Below are positions 6,623-19,678 of a stretch of 64,000 nucleotides of DNA, one piece after another. Origin of the DNA: Streptococcus merionis DSM 19192 (GTDB lineage Bacteria > Bacillota > Bacilli > Lactobacillales > Streptococcaceae); assembly GCF_000380085.1 (NCBI RefSeq), contig NZ_KB904538.1, positions 101,995 to 165,994 on the forward strand. Reading direction: 5' to 3'. The notes under the pieces are model-generated. The model did no database searches and was not told the origin of the DNA. It worked only from the letters and a program-made list of their open reading frames with translations. Each line of letters opens with the position of its first letter. Position 1 is the first letter of the stretch. The position numbers were made by a program, and so were the translations under genes.

Positions 6623-8158
6623 TTAATCTAAAAGTTGTGCTTTGACGTGTTCGATTTGGTCAACTCGAACAGCGAGATGGAGTGTATTTCCAAGATAGAG
6701 CTTGGTCTGACCGTTGACAATTTCCGAGCGTCCATGATTGACCTGTCCAGTAATCAAGACACCTTCTGGCAAGGTCAAATCACATACTCTGAAACCTGCT
6801 ATCCGTTCAGACACTGGAATCTCGATTAGGGTTGTTTCGGAAGATTCCTCAGCGTGTTCTGGTAGCATTTTCTCCAACATGGCTTCATAAATAGGCGCAC
6901 CACCCAGTAGATCCATAACGATGTAGGCTACCAAAGTGACTAGCCCTAGAGGCATCAGTTGGTGCATATCGCCAACCATTTCTGTGACCAAGACGATACC
7001 TGTCAGCGGTGCTTTTGAAATAGCTCCAAAATAGCCTGCCATCCCAAGGACGATAAAGAGTGGGAGATCAGCTGCATCCACCAATCCCATTGCTACCAAA
7101 ACCTGTCCTACCATCATGCCAAGAACTGATCCCAAAGAAAGAATCGGCAGAAAAATGCCACCTGGAAGACCTGAGCCGTAGCTCAGCATACTCATGACAA
7201 AACGAATGATAAAAAAGAGTGCCAAGATACCGAAGCTGTAGTTTGCCATAGGTAGGTGCATAATCAGCTCATGCCCACCACCGAGTAGCTCAGGAAGCCA
7301 GTAACCAATCGGGAGAATAAGGATAAAAGGAAGGATAGGATAATAAGAAGCTCCTCGTCTTAGAAAATTTCCAATCTTACTGTAGAAAGTTGGCATGTTG
7401 AGAATAACTTTCTCGTAGAGATAACCCGATAGACCAAGGAAGGCACCTGTTAGGAGGAAAAGCCAGTATTGATGAAACGCCAAATCAGGCACTTCAATCG
7501 GCATCTGGAGAACAGGGGTCAGACCAAATATCCAGAGAGATACCGCATTGGCGACAAGACTAGCGGTCAAGGTCGTCACCCAGACTAAGCGTGAAAAATG
7601 GCGGTAGACCTCTTCCACGACAAAAAGAAGCCCTGCTATAGGAGCGTTAAAAGCGGCAGAAAGTCCAGCAGCAGATCCACTGGCAATCAAAACTCGCATT
7701 TCAAGGGGTGACAATTGGAGCTTACTCGCAATTCCTTTGGCAGTCATAGCACCCAGCTGAATCGAAGGTCCTTCTCGTCCAAGCATCAAACCGCTTGAAA
7801 TAGCTAACACACCTCCAACGAATTTTCGCCATAAAATGCTCCACCAATCAGAGTTCATGAGACCTTTTAATTCACCCTCGATTTGTGGGATACCTGAGCC
7901 ACGAACACCGCTTTCAGACTTGGCAAGTTGCCCAAGTAGCCAAGTTAGCAGGAGATATCCAACTATTATAGCAAAAAGCACGAGCGTGTTTTGCCGTGCT
8001 AATTGGTAAAGATGGACAAGCCACTCAAAACTGTAGCCAATCAGAAGTCGAAAGAGACTGACAACAAGGCCTGCCAATAGACCTACTAAAATCCCTCGAA
8101 AGACGGATACCATGATTGAGCTTGAAATGTAGTTGAATTCTTGTTGTTTTTGTTTCAT
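6623..8158 (-). CDS. ClC-family chloride/proton antiporter with C-terminal regulatory domain
   Basis: A 511-aa membrane protein that exchanges chloride (or fluoride) for protons. All three ClC selectivity motifs are present: GSGIP (87-91), GREGP (127-131, containing the gating glutamate Glu129) and GLPGGIFLP in the second half. The proton glutamate region FVVEEVYRHF is also kept, so an exchanger rather than a channel is expected. The last ~75 residues (from about IPVSERIAGFRV) look like a TrkA-C/RCK-C ligand-binding domain. It lies 17 bases downstream of potD on the same strand and may be read through from the pot operon. Confidence 0.9.
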   Translation of the reverse strand: MKQKQQEFNYISSSIMVSVFRGILVGLLAGLVVSLFRLLIGYSFEWLVHLYQLARQNTLVLFAIIVGYLLLTWLLGQLAKSESGVRGSGIPQIEGELKGLMNSDWWSILWRKFVGGVLAISSGLMLGREGPSIQLGAMTAKGIASKLQLSPLEMRVLIASGSAAGLSAAFNAPIAGLLFVVEEVYRHFSRLVWVTTLTASLVANAVSLWIFGLTPVLQMPIEVPDLAFHQYWLFLLTGAFLGLSGYLYEKVILNMPTFYSKIGNFLRRGASYYPILPFILILPIGYWLPELLGGGHELIMHLPMANYSFGILALFFIIRFVMSMLSYGSGLPGGIFLPILSLGSVLGMMVGQVLVAMGLVDAADLPLFIVLGMAGYFGAISKAPLTGIVLVTEMVGDMHQLMPLGLVTLVAYIVMDLLGGAPIYEAMLEKMLPEHAEESSETTLIEIPVSERIAGFRVCDLTLPEGVLITGQVNHGRSEIVNGQTKLYLGNTLHLAVRVDQIEHVKAQLLD

Positions 8159-8175
8159 CGTTATGTGTTTCGTTT

Positions 8176-9246
8176 CTATTTGCGATACATCTTAAACTGC
8201 AGGTAAAGGTCGTTATACTCACCTAGCAATTCTTTACCGAGGTTGTCATAAACTTCAAGATTATCAAGGGTTTCACCGCTTGGGTAGAAAGCTTGGTCTT
8301 CGCGTGTTTCTTTATCAAGCATAGCTTTAGCCACATTGTTTGGCGTTGAATAGCCGATGTACTCTGCATTGCGTAGAGCATTTTCAGGTCGGAGCATAAA
8401 GCTAATAAAAGCATGAGCACCCTCAATGTTTTTAGCTGTTTTTGGAATGACGATGTTGTCAAACCAGAGATTGCTACCTTTTGAAGGGACGACATAGACC
8501 AGATTTTCATTGCCATCTAGCATTTCGCTGGCTTCACCTGAAAAGCTGACCGCCACTGCCGCTTCTTCTTGGATCATGTACCCTTTGATCTCATCAGCAA
8601 CGATTGCCTTAATGTTCGGGGTCAGCTTATAGAGTTTATCAGCTGCTTCTAAAAGCTGGTCGCGCTTATCTGAGTTGAGGCTGTAACCAAGGGTCTGCAG
8701 ACCAATTCCCATTCCCTCACGGGCACCGTCAATCAGCATGATGTTGTTGCGGTATTCTTCTCTCCAAAGGTCTTCCCATTCCAATGGCGCTTTATCAACC
8801 ATGGTTTTATTATAAATAATGCCCAAAGTTCCCCAGAAATAAGGAACTGAATATTTGTTTTCAGGATCAAAGGACTGATTGACAAACTCCTCACCAAGAT
8901 TTTCCATCCCACTGATCTGACTGTGGTCTAGTGGCAAAAGCAAGTCTTCCTCAATCATCTTGGAAATCATATATTCGGACGGAACAGCAATATCGTAGGT
9001 TGTCCCGCCTTGATTAATTTTGGTGTACATGGATTCGTTGGAATCAAAGGTCTGGTAGTCAACCTGAATCCCTGTTTCAGCGGTAAAGTCTTCTAAAAGC
9101 TCTGGATCAATATAGTCGCCCCAGTTATAAATGACTAGTTTTCCCGTGCTGCCAGAATCTTTCTGCGCTGTCATGACTAGACTAGTTCCCCAGAATACGA
9201 TAATAATAGCAAGGATTCCAGCAAAAAATGATACAAATTTACGCAT
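8176..9246 (-). CDS. potD: Spermidine/putrescine ABC transporter, substrate-binding protein
   Basis: A 356-aa extracellular polyamine-binding protein. One hydrophobic N-terminal segment (~8-27) serves as signal or anchor. There is no lipobox cysteine, so it is probably tethered by an uncleaved helix or secreted. The mature domain opens with KLVIYNWGDYIDPELL, typical of PotD. It is the last gene of murB-potABCD. Its ATG overlaps the potC stop by one base (position 9246), so translation is coupled. Confidence 0.93.
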   Translation of the reverse strand: MRKFVSFFAGILAIIIVFWGTSLVMTAQKDSGSTGKLVIYNWGDYIDPELLEDFTAETGIQVDYQTFDSNESMYTKINQGGTTYDIAVPSEYMISKMIEEDLLLPLDHSQISGMENLGEEFVNQSFDPENKYSVPYFWGTLGIIYNKTMVDKAPLEWEDLWREEYRNNIMLIDGAREGMGIGLQTLGYSLNSDKRDQLLEAADKLYKLTPNIKAIVADEIKGYMIQEEAAVAVSFSGEASEMLDGNENLVYVVPSKGSNLWFDNIVIPKTAKNIEGAHAFISFMLRPENALRNAEYIGYSTPNNVAKAMLDKETREDQAFYPSGETLDNLEVYDNLGKELLGEYNDLYLQFKMYRK

Positions 9247-10016
9247 TAGGCTTCCTCCTTATCACGTGAAATAAAGTAATAGCCAATCACTAGAACGATT
9301 GAAAAGAGAAAGACCAGAGCTGACAAGGCATTGATTTCCAAAGAAATTCCCTGACGAGCTCGTGAATAAATCTCGACAGATAAGGTTGAGAAACCATTTC
9401 CTGTGACAAAGAAGGTCACTGCAAAGTCATCAAGCGAGTAGGTAAAAGCCATGAAATAACCTGCAATAATAGCTGGTGTCAAATAAGGCAACATAATTTC
9501 GCGGAACATCTGGCTGTGACTGGCTCCAAGGTCATAAGCTGCTGAAATCATATCGGCATTCATCTCTTTAAGCCTTGGCAAGACCATGAGCACCACAATG
9601 GGAATCGAAAAGGCAATATGGCTAAGTAAGACCGATACAAAGCCCAGCTGAAAGCCAATCGTGGTAAAGAGAATCAGAAAGGCTGCGCCAATCATCACAT
9701 CAGGTGCGACCATAAGAATGTTATTGGCAGACAGAAGACCATCTTGTAGTTTGCGGCGAACTTGATAGATATAAATAGCGCCAAAAGTTCCAATGATAGT
9801 TGCAATCAGCGAGCTTAAAAAGGCTAAAAGAAAGGTCTGTACCACAATCAACATCAGACGGTTGTCGCTAAAGACCGATTGGAAATGCTCCAACGTTACC
9901 CCTTGAAAGCTGTTCATATCCCCACCGCTATTAAAAGCATAGTAAATCAAATAGAAAATCGGCAGGTAAAGAACGATAAAGACAAGAGTCAGATAGAGGT
10001 TTGAGAATTTTTTCAT
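9246..10016 (-). CDS. potC: Spermidine/putrescine ABC transporter permease
   Basis: A 256-aa inner permease subunit with six predicted membrane helices. The EAA loop reads AAYDLGASHSQMFREIMLP, which contacts the PotA ATPase. The start overlaps the end of potB by four bases. It pairs with PotB as the heterodimeric channel of the polyamine importer. Confidence 0.93.
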   Translation of the reverse strand: MKKFSNLYLTLVFIVLYLPIFYLIYYAFNSGGDMNSFQGVTLEHFQSVFSDNRLMLIVVQTFLLAFLSSLIATIIGTFGAIYIYQVRRKLQDGLLSANNILMVAPDVMIGAAFLILFTTIGFQLGFVSVLLSHIAFSIPIVVLMVLPRLKEMNADMISAAYDLGASHSQMFREIMLPYLTPAIIAGYFMAFTYSLDDFAVTFFVTGNGFSTLSVEIYSRARQGISLEINALSALVFLFSIVLVIGYYFISRDKEEA

Positions 10017-14312: not shown

Positions 14313-15599
14313 TTATTCTCCTAAAACACGCAGAATATTATTGACTTTAAAATCATTGACAGCTTCTAATTGTTCAGTAACATTTTTCAGCTGTGTTTTG
14401 TTGAGGGTGCGAGTCACAATGACGACACGTACTGCATCTTTACCAGATTGACGCTGCAAAACTTGCTTAAGGAAAATCTTTTCTGCCTCAAAAATCTCCA
14501 TCAAGCGCAAGATTTGATCCGGTTGATCAGGTGTTTGAATAGAGAAATAATAAGCACTCTTGATGTCTTCAGCTTTAGCTAATTGGGCAGGACGGCTGTA
14601 TTCATTGAAAGATTTTCCAACAGTTTTATCATGGAGACGGCGGGTAATTCGGATAATGTCTGCCACAACAGATGCTGCTGTTGGTTTTTGACCAGCCCCT
14701 GGGCCGTAAAACATTGACTCACCGACACCGATCGACTCTACAAAAACGGCATTCATCACACCGGTAACAACAGCTAATGGGTGGTCTTTTGGCAAGAAAG
14801 TTGGCGAAACTTCTGCGGCCAAGCCAGATGACGTCTCCTCAATCGAAGCCACTAGCTTAATCACATAACCCAAATCTTGGGCCAAGGAGACATCAGCAGG
14901 TGTAATGTCACGAATCCCCTTATGGATTACATCCTCAAAATCAATGGTCATGCCAAACGCAAATTGGCTGAGAATAACAGCTTTATAAGCTGCGTCAACA
15001 CCGTCAACATCATTAGTCGGATCAGACTCTGCATAGCCTAATTCCTGAGCCTTAGCAAGAGCTGCCTCATAAGACCAACCTTCTTCGACCATTTTGGTCA
15101 TCATAAAATTCGAGGTTCCGTTCAATACCCCCAAGATACGTGTGATTTTATCTGATGTAAAGGAATTGGCCAAAGTACGCAAAATAGGAATGCCGCCAGC
15201 CACAGCCGCTTCATAATAGAGAGCAACATTGTTTTTGTTAGCAATCTCAAACAATTCTGAGCCATAGACAGCCAGCAAGTCTTTATTGGCAGTGACAACA
15301 TGCTTACCAGACTCAAGTGCGCGCGTGATAAATGTCTTGGCAGGTTCGATACGGCCCATCAATTCTACCACAATAGCAATCTCGGAATCGTTGATGATGT
15401 CGTCAATATCTGTAACAAAAGCGTGATGGTGCCCTTTTGCCAACAAAGCTTTCTTCTCGTCTTCATCTCTGACGAGAACTTTTACAATTTCAATCTCTGA
15501 TTTAGCCGCTTGCTGAATTTTTTCACTACTTTCTTTTAACAGAAAAGGAACACCGCTAGCCACCGTACCAAATCCAAGCAGGGCAATTTTTACTGACAT
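14313..15599 (-). CDS. hom: Homoserine dehydrogenase
   Basis: A 428-aa enzyme that reduces aspartate semialdehyde to homoserine. The nucleotide-binding loop is [11 protein letters not shown]. The catalytic domain includes [13 protein letters not shown] and the acidic stretch [12 protein letters not shown]-terminal ACT domain (~350-428) suggests feedback control by threonine. An extended -10 (TGATATAAT, core 15628-15633) lies just upstream. From 15634 to 15840 I see nothing else clear. Confidence 0.95.
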
Positions 15600-15840
15600 A
15601 GAAACTCCTTAAGAAACATTTTAACCCATTATATCAGATTTTTCAGAAAACTTGTAGTGGTGCTGCCTTTTAATTCTGTTACAGTCGTTTAAACTAGATC
15701 TAAAGTTAAACCGAGACTTAACTTATCATCTAGCTGGTAGTAAATTGGAAACAGCCTTTTAGACAGCTTAAATACGATAACTTCGATGCTTTAGAAATCT
15801 GATTTTAAAGATAGGTATTTAAAAATTTTTGTAAAAACTC

Positions 15841-15869
15841 TTGACAAAAGTTAAATATAAAATTATAAT
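15841..15869 (+). promoter_or_regulatory. Strong promoter of the peptide/exporter module
   Basis: TTGACA (15841-15846), exactly 17 bases, then TATAAT (15864-15869). It is full consensus at both hexamers, one of the strongest promoters in the window, and drives the short ORF, exporter and HTH gene. Confidence 0.85.
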
Positions 15870-15949
15870 GTAAGCATATATTTAATTTTTGTCGCTTACC
15901 TTTATTTATTCTATTTCAATTTTTCATAAATTTTTAAAGGAGAATTTTT

Positions 15950-16033
15950 ATGGCTACTAAACAAGAAAATGTCATTGTTATGAACTGCTACCCCACTTTC
16001 AAAGCAGGAGTAAAAATTCTGCTTCATATTTGA
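15950..16033 (+). CDS. 27-aa peptide ORF at the head of an ABC-exporter module
   Basis: The consensus promoter at 15841 is followed by AAAGGAG (15936-15942), an A/T spacer and ATG at 15950. The ORF encodes MATKQENVIVMNC followed by YPTFKAGVKILLHI, then TGA and TAG in tandem. It has no double-glycine motif, no signal peptide and one Cys. The next reading frame (-1) stays open from the middle of the ORF to 16161, just before the exporter, and also encodes N-C-Y-P-T. The present ORF may therefore be the front of a longer precursor (~70 aa) broken at an A-run near 16012-16016, or one read by -1 slippage. Position and promoter suggest an exported peptide; no known family is recognised. Confidence 0.5.
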   Translation: MATKQENVIVMNCYPTFKAGVKILLHI

Positions 16034-16161
16034 TAGAACCGTTTGGCACTATCACTTACTGGCTAAGTCAACATAGTCTCTTGTACGGGGTTTGTTTCAA
16101 CAGTCCAGTGGATAATTGCTACCCGACCCTTATTCTATTTTCTCCCACTTCTATTTTTTGA
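16034..16161 (+). pseudogene. Open -1 frame continuing the short peptide ORF
   Basis: In the frame one base back from the peptide ORF, translation is open from 15961 to TGA at 16159-16161. It reads ...LIEPFGTITYWLSQHS, then LLYGVCFNSPVDNCYPT, then LILFSPTSIF. It has no ATG of its own; a TTG at 16030 lacks a spaced ribosome site. The stop falls 13 bases before the exporter ATG, the spacing expected of an intact upstream gene. The DNA around NCYPT (AACTGCTACCCCAC at 15983-15996, AATTGCTACCCGAC at 16114-16127) is repeated. I read it as the displaced C-terminus of the precursor, or as a decayed second peptide. Confidence 0.4.
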
Positions 16162-16174
16162 AAGCAGGTCTCCC

Positions 16175-17767
16175 ATGAAACTTTATCAATATAAACATAT
16201 TCCTATGGCCATTTTCTCAACTATAACATTTTCCTTGTTGAGTGTCTTGTTATCGTACTCCATGTCACTTTTGATTGCTCAAAATCAAAATGAACTTTTA
16301 AAAAGATTCTTTAGTGTTTTCGTGATTTATTTGCTACATTCAATCGCTCTTTTTTGGAATCTCAGGTCTATAGCAAAAGCAGAAACCTCTTTACAATCCA
16401 TCTTAGCTCAACAAACGGACATCCATTTTGCAAAGATGAATTTTGAGCAATACCATCAAAAAGATCACGGTGAACATTTATCAATGTATATCAATGATAT
16501 TCCAAAAGTGATTGAATTAACCCTTGATAAATACCTTTCTCGCATAAAAATGGCTACAACAGCTATTGGTAGCTTCGTAGCCTTGATAAAAATCCATTAT
16601 TCGCTAGGTCTAGTGGCCATTGTAGCATTTACTTTCATGTCTTTTGTTCCTAAATTTTTTCAACAAAAACTAAGGCATTATATTTCTGGATTGCAAACTG
16701 AAAAAGCAAGCTATACCAGTAAGGTAAGGGAGCTTTTACAGGGTTATATAACGTTTTTTGAAAACATGGCATTTTCAGTATTCTTTCACAAATCATCAGC
16801 TGCTACAAAAAAATACACGGACTACCAGCTGAAAACACAGACTTTCACTGCTACAATGAGCTCCTGCCTTACTTTTGTAAATGGCTTTGTATCAGTGGTT
16901 GCTGTGGCCTACGTTTCATATCTGGTCATCAGAAATCAAGTAGAAGCTGGTGCACTCCTCGCCGTTCTGTCACTCATTCCAAGTTTTGGAAGTTCTGTGA
17001 TTCAATTTCTATCCGAAGGCGAATTTTATAAATCAGGCCTTGCATTATTTGATGAGAAACTTGCTTTTGCTAAGGATTCTGTTACTCTACAAGAACCTTC
17101 AACCATACAGATTGACGAGAGCAATCAATCTGAGTACACTCATCCCTATTCACTATCGTTGAAAAACATTAAGATTCCATTTAAAAACCAACTGTCCTTT
17201 CCTGATATGACATTTCTCCCTCATCAGAAATATGCTATAATGGGAGAAAGTGGATCAGGGAAGTCCAGCTTAGTTAAAGTGTTAATTGGAGAAATTGAAA
17301 AATATTCTGGAGAAGTTCTTGTCAACAACAAGAAAAAGAACCCGAGTCAGCATTTGTTTAACATTATCAGTTACATGAATCAGGAAACTTTTTTATTTAA
17401 CGATAGTATCAAGAATAATATTGACTTGCTTGGTCAGATGTCAGATGATGACGTTCAGCAGTTGTTAAACGCTGTTGGCTTAGAATCCTTTTCACCCGAA
17501 TTAGTTATCCATGATAATGGCAAAAACTTATCTGGTGGTCAGCGGCAAAGGTTGGCTTTTGCACGCGCGATAGCTCGTAAAAAAGAGATTTTAATCTTAG
17601 ACGAAGCAACTGCTAATTTGGATACACAATCTGCACAAATACTTGAAGGGCTTGCTATCCAATCTGCTAAAACAGTTATCATGATTACCCATCATATGAG
17701 TGACACCCTTAGGCCGCATCTTGATGATGTCATTACTATCAGGAGTTTAAATGAATCCAGAAGATAA
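16175..17767 (+). CDS. ABC exporter (fused membrane and ATPase domains)
   Basis: A 530-aa half-transporter. Membrane helices occupy roughly residues 1-290. The ATPase follows, with Walker A GESGSGKSS (~357-365), Q-loop SYMNQETFLF, signature LSGGQRQR, Walker B ILILDEATANLD with an intact catalytic Glu, and H-loop MITHHM. There is no N-terminal C39 peptidase, so it would export but not cleave a leader. It resembles peptide and lantibiotic exporters in layout. It sits 13 bases after the displaced peptide frame and overlaps the next gene by 17 bases. The region is visibly richer in A/T and in Lys/Asn codons than the flanking housekeeping genes, which may signal transfer. Substrate unknown. Confidence 0.8.
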   Translation: MKLYQYKHIPMAIFSTITFSLLSVLLSYSMSLLIAQNQNELLKRFFSVFVIYLLHSIALFWNLRSIAKAETSLQSILAQQTDIHFAKMNFEQYHQKDHGEHLSMYINDIPKVIELTLDKYLSRIKMATTAIGSFVALIKIHYSLGLVAIVAFTFMSFVPKFFQQKLRHYISGLQTEKASYTSKVRELLQGYITFFENMAFSVFFHKSSAATKKYTDYQLKTQTFTATMSSCLTFVNGFVSVVAVAYVSYLVIRNQVEAGALLAVLSLIPSFGSSVIQFLSEGEFYKSGLALFDEKLAFAKDSVTLQEPSTIQIDESNQSEYTHPYSLSLKNIKIPFKNQLSFPDMTFLPHQKYAIMGESGSGKSSLVKVLIGEIEKYSGEVLVNNKKKNPSQHLFNIISYMNQETFLFNDSIKNNIDLLGQMSDDDVQQLLNAVGLESFSPELVIHDNGKNLSGGQRQRLAFARAIARKKEILILDEATANLDTQSAQILEGLAIQSAKTVIMITHHMSDTLRPHLDDVITIRSLNESRR

Positions 17768-18740
17768 AGTTATCGATTTTTGTCTATCCTTGATTTATGC
17801 AGGGAAAAATCTTGAAGAATACAAAGAGTATAAAGACTTATTGAAAGCAATTGATACAAGCTATCTTAAAGCAATTAAGGAGTATCAATTAATTTTACAA
17901 GAACAGTGTCACCTTATCGACTATTTTGTCAATGAGGAGTACAATGTATTATCCTACATCCTAATCCTACAGCATATCCCTGACTTTGAAGCGTTGAGGT
18001 CTTATCTTACCAATGTTTCAAAAGAGGATTTCTTTCAGGTCATTTCTACCCACATCCTTGAGAAAAAGACCCCATTTTCTACTCAAGACTTATTGGAAGT
18101 TTCGCTAGAGGAAAAAAATAAGTGGAAATTGACGGAATTATTTTATAAATATACCGAAATCAAAGACGAATTTTTAGAGGTGATTGAAAACTCTTGGCAA
18201 CAGTATTCTAGCTTAGTGACGTCCTTAGAACACCATTTTCAATCTAAAATCGCACAGGAAAAAAGGCGTTTAGCAGAAAAGTCTGACAACCTCTATTCAG
18301 TGGTCTATAGAGATTACATTACAAAAGAGGATTACGAAGCTTCCGAAAATAACCATCTGCTACTAGCTTCCTTTCAGAAAATCATGTTCACAAAGATGAC
18401 AAGCTCAGGAAGTTTAGGTTTGGGGCTGTTTGCTTATGACTATTTAAGATTTGTCAAATCCACCAACAATTATAACCAAGAAAGTCGAGAAAAGATTTTA
18501 AAAATCTTAGCCGATCCAACCAGATTTGGGATTCTAAAGTTTATTATTGAAGGAGTATCTTCTAACAAAATTATAGCCAATAAATTCGGAATTTCTTCTG
18601 CTGCTGTCAGTTACCAATTAAAGAACCTTCTTGATAACAAAATCATACTGATAGACCCTAATAGCAGAAAATATACTTTAAATAAGGAATTGCTGAAACA
18701 TACCTTGATTGGCATCGAAAAAGAATTATCCCTAGACTAG
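17751..18740 (+). CDS. Protein of unknown function with C-terminal winged helix
   Basis: A 329-aa protein. Residues 1-~240 are mostly helical and charged, and I do not recognise them. Residues 245-325 form an ArsR/MarR-like winged helix: ILKILADPTRFGILKFI, then recognition helix SSAAVSYQLKNLL and a wing at NSRKYTLNKE. It overlaps the exporter gene by 17 bases, so the two are translated together. The unusual order (large sensor first, DNA-binding domain last) suggests that the N-terminal part senses the exported peptide or its precursor and the winged helix controls the module. This role is inferred from context only. No cysteine-rich metal site typical of ArsR is seen. Confidence 0.7.
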   Translation: MNPEDKVIDFCLSLIYAGKNLEEYKEYKDLLKAIDTSYLKAIKEYQLILQEQCHLIDYFVNEEYNVLSYILILQHIPDFEALRSYLTNVSKEDFFQVISTHILEKKTPFSTQDLLEVSLEEKNKWKLTELFYKYTEIKDEFLEVIENSWQQYSSLVTSLEHHFQSKIAQEKRRLAEKSDNLYSVVYRDYITKEDYEASENNHLLLASFQKIMFTKMTSSGSLGLGLFAYDYLRFVKSTNNYNQESREKILKILADPTRFGILKFIIEGVSSNKIIANKFGISSAAVSYQLKNLLDNKIILIDPNSRKYTLNKELLKHTLIGIEKELSLD

Positions 18741-18966
18741 TGAACACTAAGGTCAACTCTGACTAAGCAGGATTAGTATTTTTGATCTCTGACTGATTAG
18801 GCTTGAAGTAGCTGGATGAAAAATCAGACATCTACTGCCGATTATGTTAGCTCGTGTTCAACTACAAAATACAAGATTGAGAGGCTTTTCCCCAGTCTCA
18901 CTTCTCCATATTCCTTGCCTTTACTTCTCAAAATCCATTGACTGGCAAAATCTAGAAAGATACCAA

Positions 18967-19678
18967 ATGCGTTTAGATAAATTGCTATGGAAAAACGGCC
19001 TAGCCTCCAAGAAAAAAATAAAACAGGTATTTCAAACTAATCAGGTCACAATTGATGGTCAACCGGCCAAGTATCTCGGACAAAATGTGGATCCATCTCT
19101 CCAAAAGATTTTGATGAATGGGAAACAGATTCATGATAATAGCCAAGTTTATTTCATGCTAAATAAGCCCAAAGGCTATGTGACTGCTGTTTCAGATGAC
19201 ACAAACCCAACTGTCCTTGACTTGCTTAAACCAGAAGACCAACGAGAAGGAATCTACCATATTGGACGCTAACACCGAAGGCCTGCTCCTTTTGACTAAT
19301 AATGGGCCTTTAGGTCTACGCATGCTTCACCCTGATCAACATGTTGAAAAAACCTATCTAGCAGAGGTCAATGCAAGCCTTGACTGGCGAGCTGTTGTCC
19401 GCTTTGATCAAGGAATTCGATTTCATGATGGTACAAGGTGTCGACCTGCTCAGTTGCAAATCCTAGAGACTCGCATCGGCTATAGTCTAGTTAAGATCAC
19501 GATCTCCGAAGGCAAATTTCATCAGGTTAAGAAAATGTTTCTGGCTGTTGGAGCCAAAGTAACCTCTCTAAAGCGTCTAACGTTTGGTCCGTTTAAGCTA
19601 GATGAGAATTTGCAGCTGGGACAGTATCGACCACTAACTCCTTCTGAATTAGAAAGCTTAAAACAGTTTTTGGATTAA
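18967..19678 (+). pseudogene. rsuA: 16S rRNA pseudouridine synthase RsuA, frameshifted by an 8-bp deletion
   Basis: Two frames join to give one RsuA of about 236 aa. The first (18967-19272) has the S4 RNA-binding start MRLDKLLWKNGLASKKK and runs through LNKPKGYVTAVSDD to YHIGR and a stop. The second frame continues with DANTEGLLLLTNNG to KQFLD at 19678. The family motif is GRLDxxTxGLLL, whose Asp is the catalytic nucleophile. The DNA reads ATTGGACGCTAAC where two tandem copies of TTGGACGC followed by TAAC would keep the frame. Loss of one 8-bp copy explains the break exactly, at the active site. A second rRNA pseudouridine synthase elsewhere might compensate. The sequence 18741-18966 before it holds only a weak hairpin (ACTAA/TTAGT then T-run near 18765-18785). 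Confidence 0.85.

Follow-up and report, generated by a model that had tools for sequence, protein, structure and literature searches.

What is the function of the compact block of genes at positions 15841 to 18740 of the DNA analyzed here, a stretch of 64,000 nucleotides (nt) from Streptococcus merionis DSM 19192 (contig NZ_KB904538.1; the window)? The block carries a short open reading frame (sORF), a gene for a fused ABC exporter, and a gene for a regulator with a C-terminal winged helix, and nothing else is encoded in it, so that genes for modification enzymes, immunity, import or processing are absent. All coordinates are positions in the window, and the module is referred to as the window locus when it is compared with its relatives. 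An earlier note, made from the sequence alone, had read the order precursor-exporter-regulator as a secreted peptide (signal, bacteriocin or modified peptide) with a one-component sensor of new architecture. Our analysis supports this interpretation in part. The module looks like an undescribed peptide-secretion or signaling operon, and we assign a probability of roughly 0.43 to its being an autoregulated peptide-export operon with signaling as the most likely use. Its features are as follows.

15841 to 15869, plus strand: sigma-70 promoter, TTGACA-17-TATAAT, 12 of 12 positions (pattern scan)
15843 to 15856, plus strand: left arm of the putative operator, GACAAAAGTTAAAT, overlapping the -35 box (genome pattern search)
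15880 to 15893, minus strand: right arm of the putative operator, GACAAAAATTAAAT, 3' of the -10 box and equal to the left arm in 13 of 14 bases
15936 to 15942, plus strand: ribosome-binding site AAAGGAG, 7 nt 5' of the sORF start (sequence)
15950 to 16033, plus strand: sORF of 27 codons, MATKQENVIVMNCYPTFKAGVKILLHI, with its ATG at 15950 and a stop codon that ends at 16033
16002 to 16024, plus strand: weak hairpin of terminator type that overlaps the sORF at its 3' end (scan count 1, shuffle mean 1.8)
16087 to 16130, plus strand: second hairpin, in the interval between sORF and exporter, -12.3 kcal/mol, marginal (folding and shuffles)
16175 to 17767, plus strand: fused ABC exporter (transmembrane domain-nucleotide-binding domain) of 530 amino acids (aa), without C39 peptidase domain
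17751 to 18740, plus strand: regulator of 329 aa, with an N-terminal domain (residues ~1 to 235) and an ArsR/SmtB-type winged helix (~245 to 320)

The structural statements of the earlier note were borne out, namely, the full-consensus promoter, the sORF with a good ribosome site, the fused exporter without C39 peptidase, the 329-aa protein with a large N-terminal part of no Pfam family, and the overlap of exporter and regulator genes, which amounts to 17 nt.

The exporter contained the Pfam domains ABC_membrane (residues 11 to 271) and ABC_tran (344 to 480), together with the Walker A, signature, and Walker B motifs (ILDEAT was seen) of the fused ABC type; no C39 domain was among its Pfam matches, which places it outside the PCAT class. 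The earlier note had recognized no named system, and the NCBIfam exporter models indeed all remained below their cut-offs among the best 25 of 193 matches. This includes the model of the streptosactin exporter GggC (NF050039), likewise a fused ABC exporter of similar length, which scored 118.4 bits against a cut-off of 750 and differs further in that the module has no radical-SAM enzyme gene. A PADLOC match to mad3 (E 5.6e-24, ABC-type) was taken as general ABC similarity and rejected.

The exporter subfamily is rare. In genome samples that share genomes, it was present in 4 of 284 genus genomes (E ≤ 1e-60) and in 5 of 335 family genomes (E ≤ 1e-70; six places, two of them in genome G192). Another carrier, G638, was reached via the regulator in a 395-genome order sample and was the only 1 of 105 genomes in its own family (E ≤ 1e-110); at that threshold a 398-genome class sample returned the window's genome only, and a 315-genome order sample G638 only. 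Seven loci were thus found: the window locus, L038 and L039 (both in G192), L040 (G272), L041 (G250), L069 (G287), and L070 (G638). The regulator gene follows the exporter gene in six of them and is missing at L041. With midpoint rooting and one fork left open, the exporter tree comprises two clades, one of the window, L038, L070, and L040 and another of L039, L041, and L069.

A first line of evidence for the proposed peptide-export operon is the recurrence of the sORF. The earlier note had suggested looking for short ORFs upstream of exporter homologues, and one with a ribosome site was found between promoter and exporter in four of the seven loci, representing both clades. The peptides of the relatives, MVTKQDDVIIIIIVKK (L038), MKTLGWKIKIIIEKD (L039), and MVNPLKKVIIIVVVVE (L040), are 15 to 16 aa long and are encoded at the same place, each preceded by a TTGACA promoter and a good ribosome site; the 27-aa window peptide, which starts with MATKQENVIVM, is their positional counterpart. 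In 2,000 dinucleotide shuffles per intergenic region, an ORF of 12 to 60 codons preceded by a Shine-Dalgarno (SD) sequence arose by chance in only 3.5 to 5.2% of cases for the four positive loci (3.55%, 3.5%, 5.2%, and 3.55%), and in 0.75% (L069), 0.15% (L070), and 6.2% (L041) for the loci without ORF. Because the window locus and L038 are close relatives (67% identity for the regulator and 74% for the exporter), the positives count as about three independent ones. No SD-filtered ORF was detected in 11 flanking stretches around the seven loci. On inspection, the hydrophobic stretch begins at residue 8 in all four peptides, none of which has a recognizable signal peptide or a double-glycine leader; a seven-residue head is followed, in the relatives, by a short Ile/Val core. 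The uninterrupted Ile/Val runs of 7 (L038) and 8 (L040) residues were not reached in any of 5,000 nucleotide shuffles each, and the total Ile/Val counts of these two peptides were matched in 0.1% and 0.04% of shuffles, respectively.

The promoter region provides a second line of evidence. The TTGACA-17-TATAAT sequence was the sole full match (12/12) among 26 promoter-like sites in the interval from 15600 to 18980. The pattern GACAAAARTTAAAT had two exact matches in the 2.36-Mb genome, and both are located at this promoter, inverted and bracketing it. Only exact matches are informative, since the 7 genome sites with one mismatch did not exceed the 11 obtained with a reversed control. At L038, AAAGTTAAAT is kept in both arms, with an arm length that differs by one base (inspection; 10/14 by script), and at the remaining exporter loci the inverted repeat is not clearly kept. 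The natural reading of this repeat is that of a putative binding site for a local autorepressor.

The third element is a set of hairpins between sORF and exporter, with stabilities of -12.3 (window), -9.6 (L038), -19.0 (L039), and -14.0 (L040) kcal/mol. Among 100 shuffles per locus, 5, 0, 8, and 2, respectively, were as stable when a T tail was demanded, and 28, 4, 0, and 2 when the tail was ignored. Terminators are therefore likely in L038 and L040. The stems start 30 nt (L038), 28 nt (L039), and 53 nt (L040) after the stop codon.

From these observations, that is, the genes, the promoter, the genome-unique repeat, the recurring sORF, and the hairpins of the relatives, an operon can be proposed whose translation, binding, export, and signaling steps are predictions. 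The regulator would repress the promoter by binding to the bracketing inverted repeat. Once the operon is on, some transcripts would stop at the hairpin after the sORF, a step suggested by the layout of the relatives and weak in the window, so that the peptide mRNA would be in excess over that of the exporter. The dedicated exporter would then pump the peptide out, whole or trimmed. The most likely use of the peptide would be as a signal similar to the SHP pheromones or to leaderless communication peptides (LCPs), and the N-terminal domain of the regulator would respond to accumulated or re-imported peptide, which would relieve repression.

A number of observations weigh against this proposal. 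Three of the seven exporter loci (L041, L069, and L070) have no such ORF 5' of the exporter, so the sORF is not obligatory. The secreted-peptide reading of the earlier note, which the four loci with an ORF above shuffle rates support, is weakened by these three. The Ile/Val run comprises only 3 residues in the window peptide (reached in 4.7% of shuffles) and in that of L039 (5.6%), and the Ile/Val counts of 6 (11%) and 4 (23%), respectively, are also unexceptional. The window peptide is the least typical of the four, with its 27 residues, a C-terminal extension containing Cys, and no long Ile/Val run. It may represent a variant or a decaying form, and the SHP-like character resides mainly in the relatives. 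The four peptides are a small sample, and one of their loci may be inactive, since the L038 exporter gene (L038 positions 8101 to 9760) is frameshifted in the G192 assembly, where codons 50 and 51 lie in different frames, with regulator and sORF intact. The presence of the ORF in both clades does not mark it as ancestral, since losses and repeated gain cost about equal numbers of steps and parsimony on so small a tree favors neither. The stem of L039 is strong, but its T tail is poor (8 of 100 shuffles were as good), and the hairpins of the window are marginal, the one at 16002 to 16024 with a scan count below the shuffle mean. No import or processing gene is present in the block. Finally, related regulators adjoin MFS-type exporters without such an ORF, as detailed below.

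Some further observations concern the sORF region and individual loci. G192 carries a second, complete module (L039) in addition to L038. The interval between sORF and exporter is longer in the window than in L038, L039, and L040, and TGCTACCC and AAAGCAGG each occur twice at 15980 to 16170; a search for the window sORF region as a repeated insertion revealed no second copy in its own genome. A peptide-gene pattern (up to 3 mismatches) was found in the six carrier genomes at the window locus and L038, which are its sources, and at 19 other places. The exporter of L041 (7805 to 9442 in that locus, genome G250) is solitary, with neither regulator nor sORF. At L069 (4305 to 6367, genome G287), the exporter-regulator pair is immediately preceded by two genes whose best NCBIfam matches, below cut-off, point to a kinase like AgrC and a response regulator like AgrA, and no SD-preceded ORF of 8 to 50 aa was present in the 385 nt 5' of these two genes.

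The regulator bears on both the sensor claim and the first alternative. Its Pfam and NCBIfam matches of note were confined to the winged helix (~245 to 320), which is assigned to the ArsR/SmtB type by its HTH_5 match (23.7 bits, cut-off 22); HTH_metalloreg scored 34.8 bits, below its cut-off of 55. A family profile built from 26 homologues retrieved winged-helix chains from the PDB, including CadC and CzrA, and the sole PDB match of another kind was a weak one of N-terminal positions 24 to 117 to YflH (3d0w, E 0.023). Most of the 26 homologues matched helix-turn-helix (HTH) families in Pfam and NCBIfam, and the other matches there were scattered and confined to single members. A PADLOC match to Csa3 (E 1.2e-8) was taken as general HTH similarity and rejected; it covers residues 164 to 317 and thus extends past the winged helix towards the N terminus. 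A single-sequence AlphaFold2 model had low confidence (pLDDT 40, pTM 0.24), and only in that model is the N-terminal domain mostly helical. Cys residues occur only at positions 11 and 53, so the winged helix has no Cys metal site, in a check that covered Cys sites only. The architecture of Rgg and other RRNPP proteins, with an N-terminal HTH and C-terminal TPR, was not found, the only match being to a C-terminal ArsR-type winged helix.

Relatives of the regulator were detected in 50 of 147 genus genomes (E ≤ 0.001). In 44 of these, the window's own genome included, the matching open frame was 300 aa or longer, and the other six contained only short frames of 97 to 103 aa, which correspond to other ArsR-type proteins. 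In the loci read, the related long regulators mostly adjoin an MFS-type exporter, a label based on two weak TIGR00900 matches, below cut-off, and on visual resemblance. Of 20 such regions retrieved, 18 were scored, L073 and L085, with interrupted MFS frames, having been dropped by a length filter; in none of the 18 did the 260 nt 5' of the MFS gene contain an Ile/Val-rich short ORF that passed the SD filter. The SD-passing short ORFs at these loci were one of 22 aa, 232 nt 5' (L077), two inside the preceding gene (L078), and one of 8 aa, 153 nt 5' (L088); those at L071, L072, and L090 were artefacts of a shortened SD window. ABC-linked regulators share 27 to 67% identity among themselves, whereas the MFS-linked ones and a paralogue share 14 to 20% with that of the window. 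Regulators of this type thus probably serve in general to control a neighboring exporter, the pair's job being self-regulated export, and the peptide gene is a feature of the ABC branch, where the peptide may be cargo or signal. Since the scored MFS-linked loci lack such an ORF, the regulator cannot be assumed to sense a peptide: the earlier note was right that its N-terminal part matches no Pfam family, yet the architecture it had called new also occurs beside MFS-type exporters.

The family (L003 to L031 and L071 to L090) consists of proteins of ~340 to 370 aa with an N-terminal part in no Pfam family and an ArsR-type winged helix; its invariant residues are W125, K251, D255, R258, K273, and I275 in window numbering. 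The paralogue, of 357 aa and with ~20% identity, is encoded in the same genome 0.24 kb before the start of the window, and the MFS-type exporter beside it enters the window to ~1141 on the minus strand, ~16 kb from the module; the two genes lie at L042, 6685 to 9136 (contig C1, 100684 to 103135). A search of a collection of genome contigs with the regulator gave one match at the level of the winged helix (L032).

These data bear directly on the alternative that the module is a ligand-induced efflux pump with a repressor that senses a harmful compound, the sORF being a dispensable accessory or a decaying remnant. The MFS-linked relatives and their missing short ORFs favor it, as do the exporter-regulator loci L069 and L070 without sORF and the fact that many of the nearest PDB sequences of the exporter are general ABCB-type pumps. 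On the other hand, a peptide exporter, the a-factor transporter 7qkr, is also among the PDB matches, and no characterized drug exporter, a match to which the earlier note had named as the finding that would speak against its reading, was hit at cut-off among the best 25 of 193 NCBIfam matches. The recurrence of the sORF in both exporter clades above shuffle rates, with the register kept and with a strong Ile/Val core in two loci, also speaks against it. We consider a plain efflux pump to be rather unlikely.

Another alternative is that the sORF is a regulatory leader whose peptide is not itself a product: an antibiotic or a shortage of Ile/Val would stall the ribosome within it, so that transcription would pass the hairpin and the exporter would be switched on. 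An sORF plus hairpin in front of an exporter gene is the layout of known attenuators, such as bmrB-bmrCD (passages of PMC4191407) and the leaders of mefA/msrD (passages of PMC10314930), which precede transporter or resistance genes. All four loci, the window with its differing C terminus among them, keep the hydrophobic stretch equally far from the start codon (inspection), and one window hairpin overlaps the sORF, as in bmrB. Equilibrium folding was less clear on the control, the thrL leader of Escherichia coli, and a second test was added, in which the share of the terminator 5' arm held by upstream RNA was determined with the ribosome at each codon (shuffles were sampled every second codon). 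This control worked, with an arm occupancy of 0.98 to 1.0 at codons 1 to 14 that none of 60 shuffles reached. In contrast, no competing antiterminator was found in any of the four leaders: the occupancy was reached or passed by 44 and 7 of 60 shuffles for the two hairpins of the window, by 27 for L038, 27 for L039, and 16 for L040, and a test for duplexes between upstream RNA and the arm gave P values of 0.05 (window), 0.12 (L038), 0.58 (L039), and 0.37 (L040).

The position of the hairpins argues in the same direction. In three of the four leaders they lie 28 to 53 nt past the stop codon, outside the usual footprint of a stalled ribosome, and in the equilibrium folding their stems form at 0.91 to 0.97 whatever the ribosome position, the behavior of a fixed partial terminator. 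Of the window's two hairpins, the one at 16002 to 16024 formed at 0.42 without ribosome and at 0.90 to 0.93 with the ribosome at codons 1 to 13, and was covered beyond; the second hairpin competes poorly with other pairings. Ribosome-mediated attenuation is thus disfavored in L038 to L040, because no antiterminator was found and stem formation is independent of the ribosome, and it is not supported in the window, although the overlap of a weak hairpin with the sORF leaves somewhat more room for it there. Taken together, an attenuator is unlikely. A search of Rfam gave one match below the gathering score, to a plant snoRNA, which was rejected.

It is very improbable that the operon makes and exports, under its own control, a bacteriocin or modified peptide whose precursor is the sORF product: the order precursor-hairpin-exporter-regulator and the distant similarity of the exporter to GggC (118 bits against 750) would fit, but this part of the earlier note found no support because the block holds no further gene, neither modification enzyme nor immunity gene, and there is no C39 domain and on inspection no double-glycine leader, while few residues could be modified in peptides of 15 to 16 aa built around an Ile/Val core, and Cys is present only in the window peptide.

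The surroundings of the module provide information on its origin. It is flanked by genes that we take, from their protein sequences, to be hom (14313 to 15599, minus strand) and an rsuA-type gene. The latter, 3' of the module at 18844 to 19678, is split over two reading frames (18844 to 19272 and 19196 to 19678) and for this reason looks frameshifted in the assembly. As the earlier note had stated, the block is AT-rich: its GC content of 34%, against a mean of 41.6%, is the lowest in the window, with none of 244 sliding 3-kb segments below it. The genes flanking the seven modules differ from locus to locus, which together with the low GC content suggests that the module was acquired by transfer. 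Viral contigs contained no relative of exporter or regulator, phages gave no DNA match, and plasmids contained no relative of the exporter at E ≤ 1e-60 or of the regulator at 1e-5; at 1e-20 the exporter matched 99 plasmid records, with identities of 23 to 28% among the best 25 of them.

How does the proposed peptide-export operon compare with known systems? We found no description of such an operon in the open-access literature, which leaves most subscription journals outside the coverage; among the papers listed there for the motif NCYPT none was relevant, and nothing on macrolide-stalling motifs was found. According to passages of PMC13361665 and PMC5167397, SHP pheromones have the mature part DI[I/L]IIVGG and derive from precursors of 22 to 23 aa, and their export is ascribed to PptAB (PMC5167397). 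A possible resemblance to Rgg/SHP pairs as portrayed there is the very short peptide gene near a presumed regulator, present in four of the seven loci; the L038 and L040 peptides, with their Ile/Val-rich stretch, appear close in kind to the mature SHP part, those of L039 and the window less so. The module differs in that the exporter gene stands between ORF and regulator, that the regulator has an ArsR-type winged helix and is not an Rgg protein, that the peptides of three loci have 15 to 16 aa and no long hydrophobic leader, and that a dedicated fused exporter is encoded in place of reliance on PptAB. With the LCPs of the SIP-RopB type, the module shares a tiny hydrophobic peptide without leader. 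However, LCPs, as far as the passages of PMC10518010 describe them, mostly have 8 to 10 aa, act on RopB, a receptor of the RRNPP type, and are usually divergent from its gene, whereas the peptides here have 15 to 27 aa and are co-oriented with exporter and an ArsR-type regulator, the only regulator of the block and not RopB-like. Membership of either family fails on the type of regulator, and our claim is limited to a possibly similar way of working. In comparison with bmrB-bmrCD and mefA/msrD, no antiterminator was found, and three of four leaders have the hairpin well past the stop codon. The nearest relatives in architecture are the pairs of MFS-type exporter and long ArsR-type regulator in the genus and order, from which the module is set apart by its ABC exporter, its sORF, and a regulator identity of 14 to 20%.

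A more far-reaching version of this reading, which we regard as doubtful, is that a leaderless SHP-like peptide (15 to 16 aa in the relatives), its own ABC exporter, and a cytoplasmic receptor would form a previously undescribed class of Gram-positive communication, in which the receptor would have the sensor domain first and the ArsR-type winged helix last and would have arisen from exporter-linked regulators that adopted the peptide as their ligand. The exit of short hydrophobic or leaderless signal peptides is only partly known, and in the passages of PMC10518010 the export route of LCPs is stated as unknown (see also PMC5167397). If the proposed peptide-export operon is real, it would offer a compact system, made up of a peptide, a dedicated exporter, and a regulator outside the RRNPP family, in which export, sensing, and feedback can be tested, and it could account for the N-terminal domain in a family of regulators that many genomes of the genus carry next to exporters.

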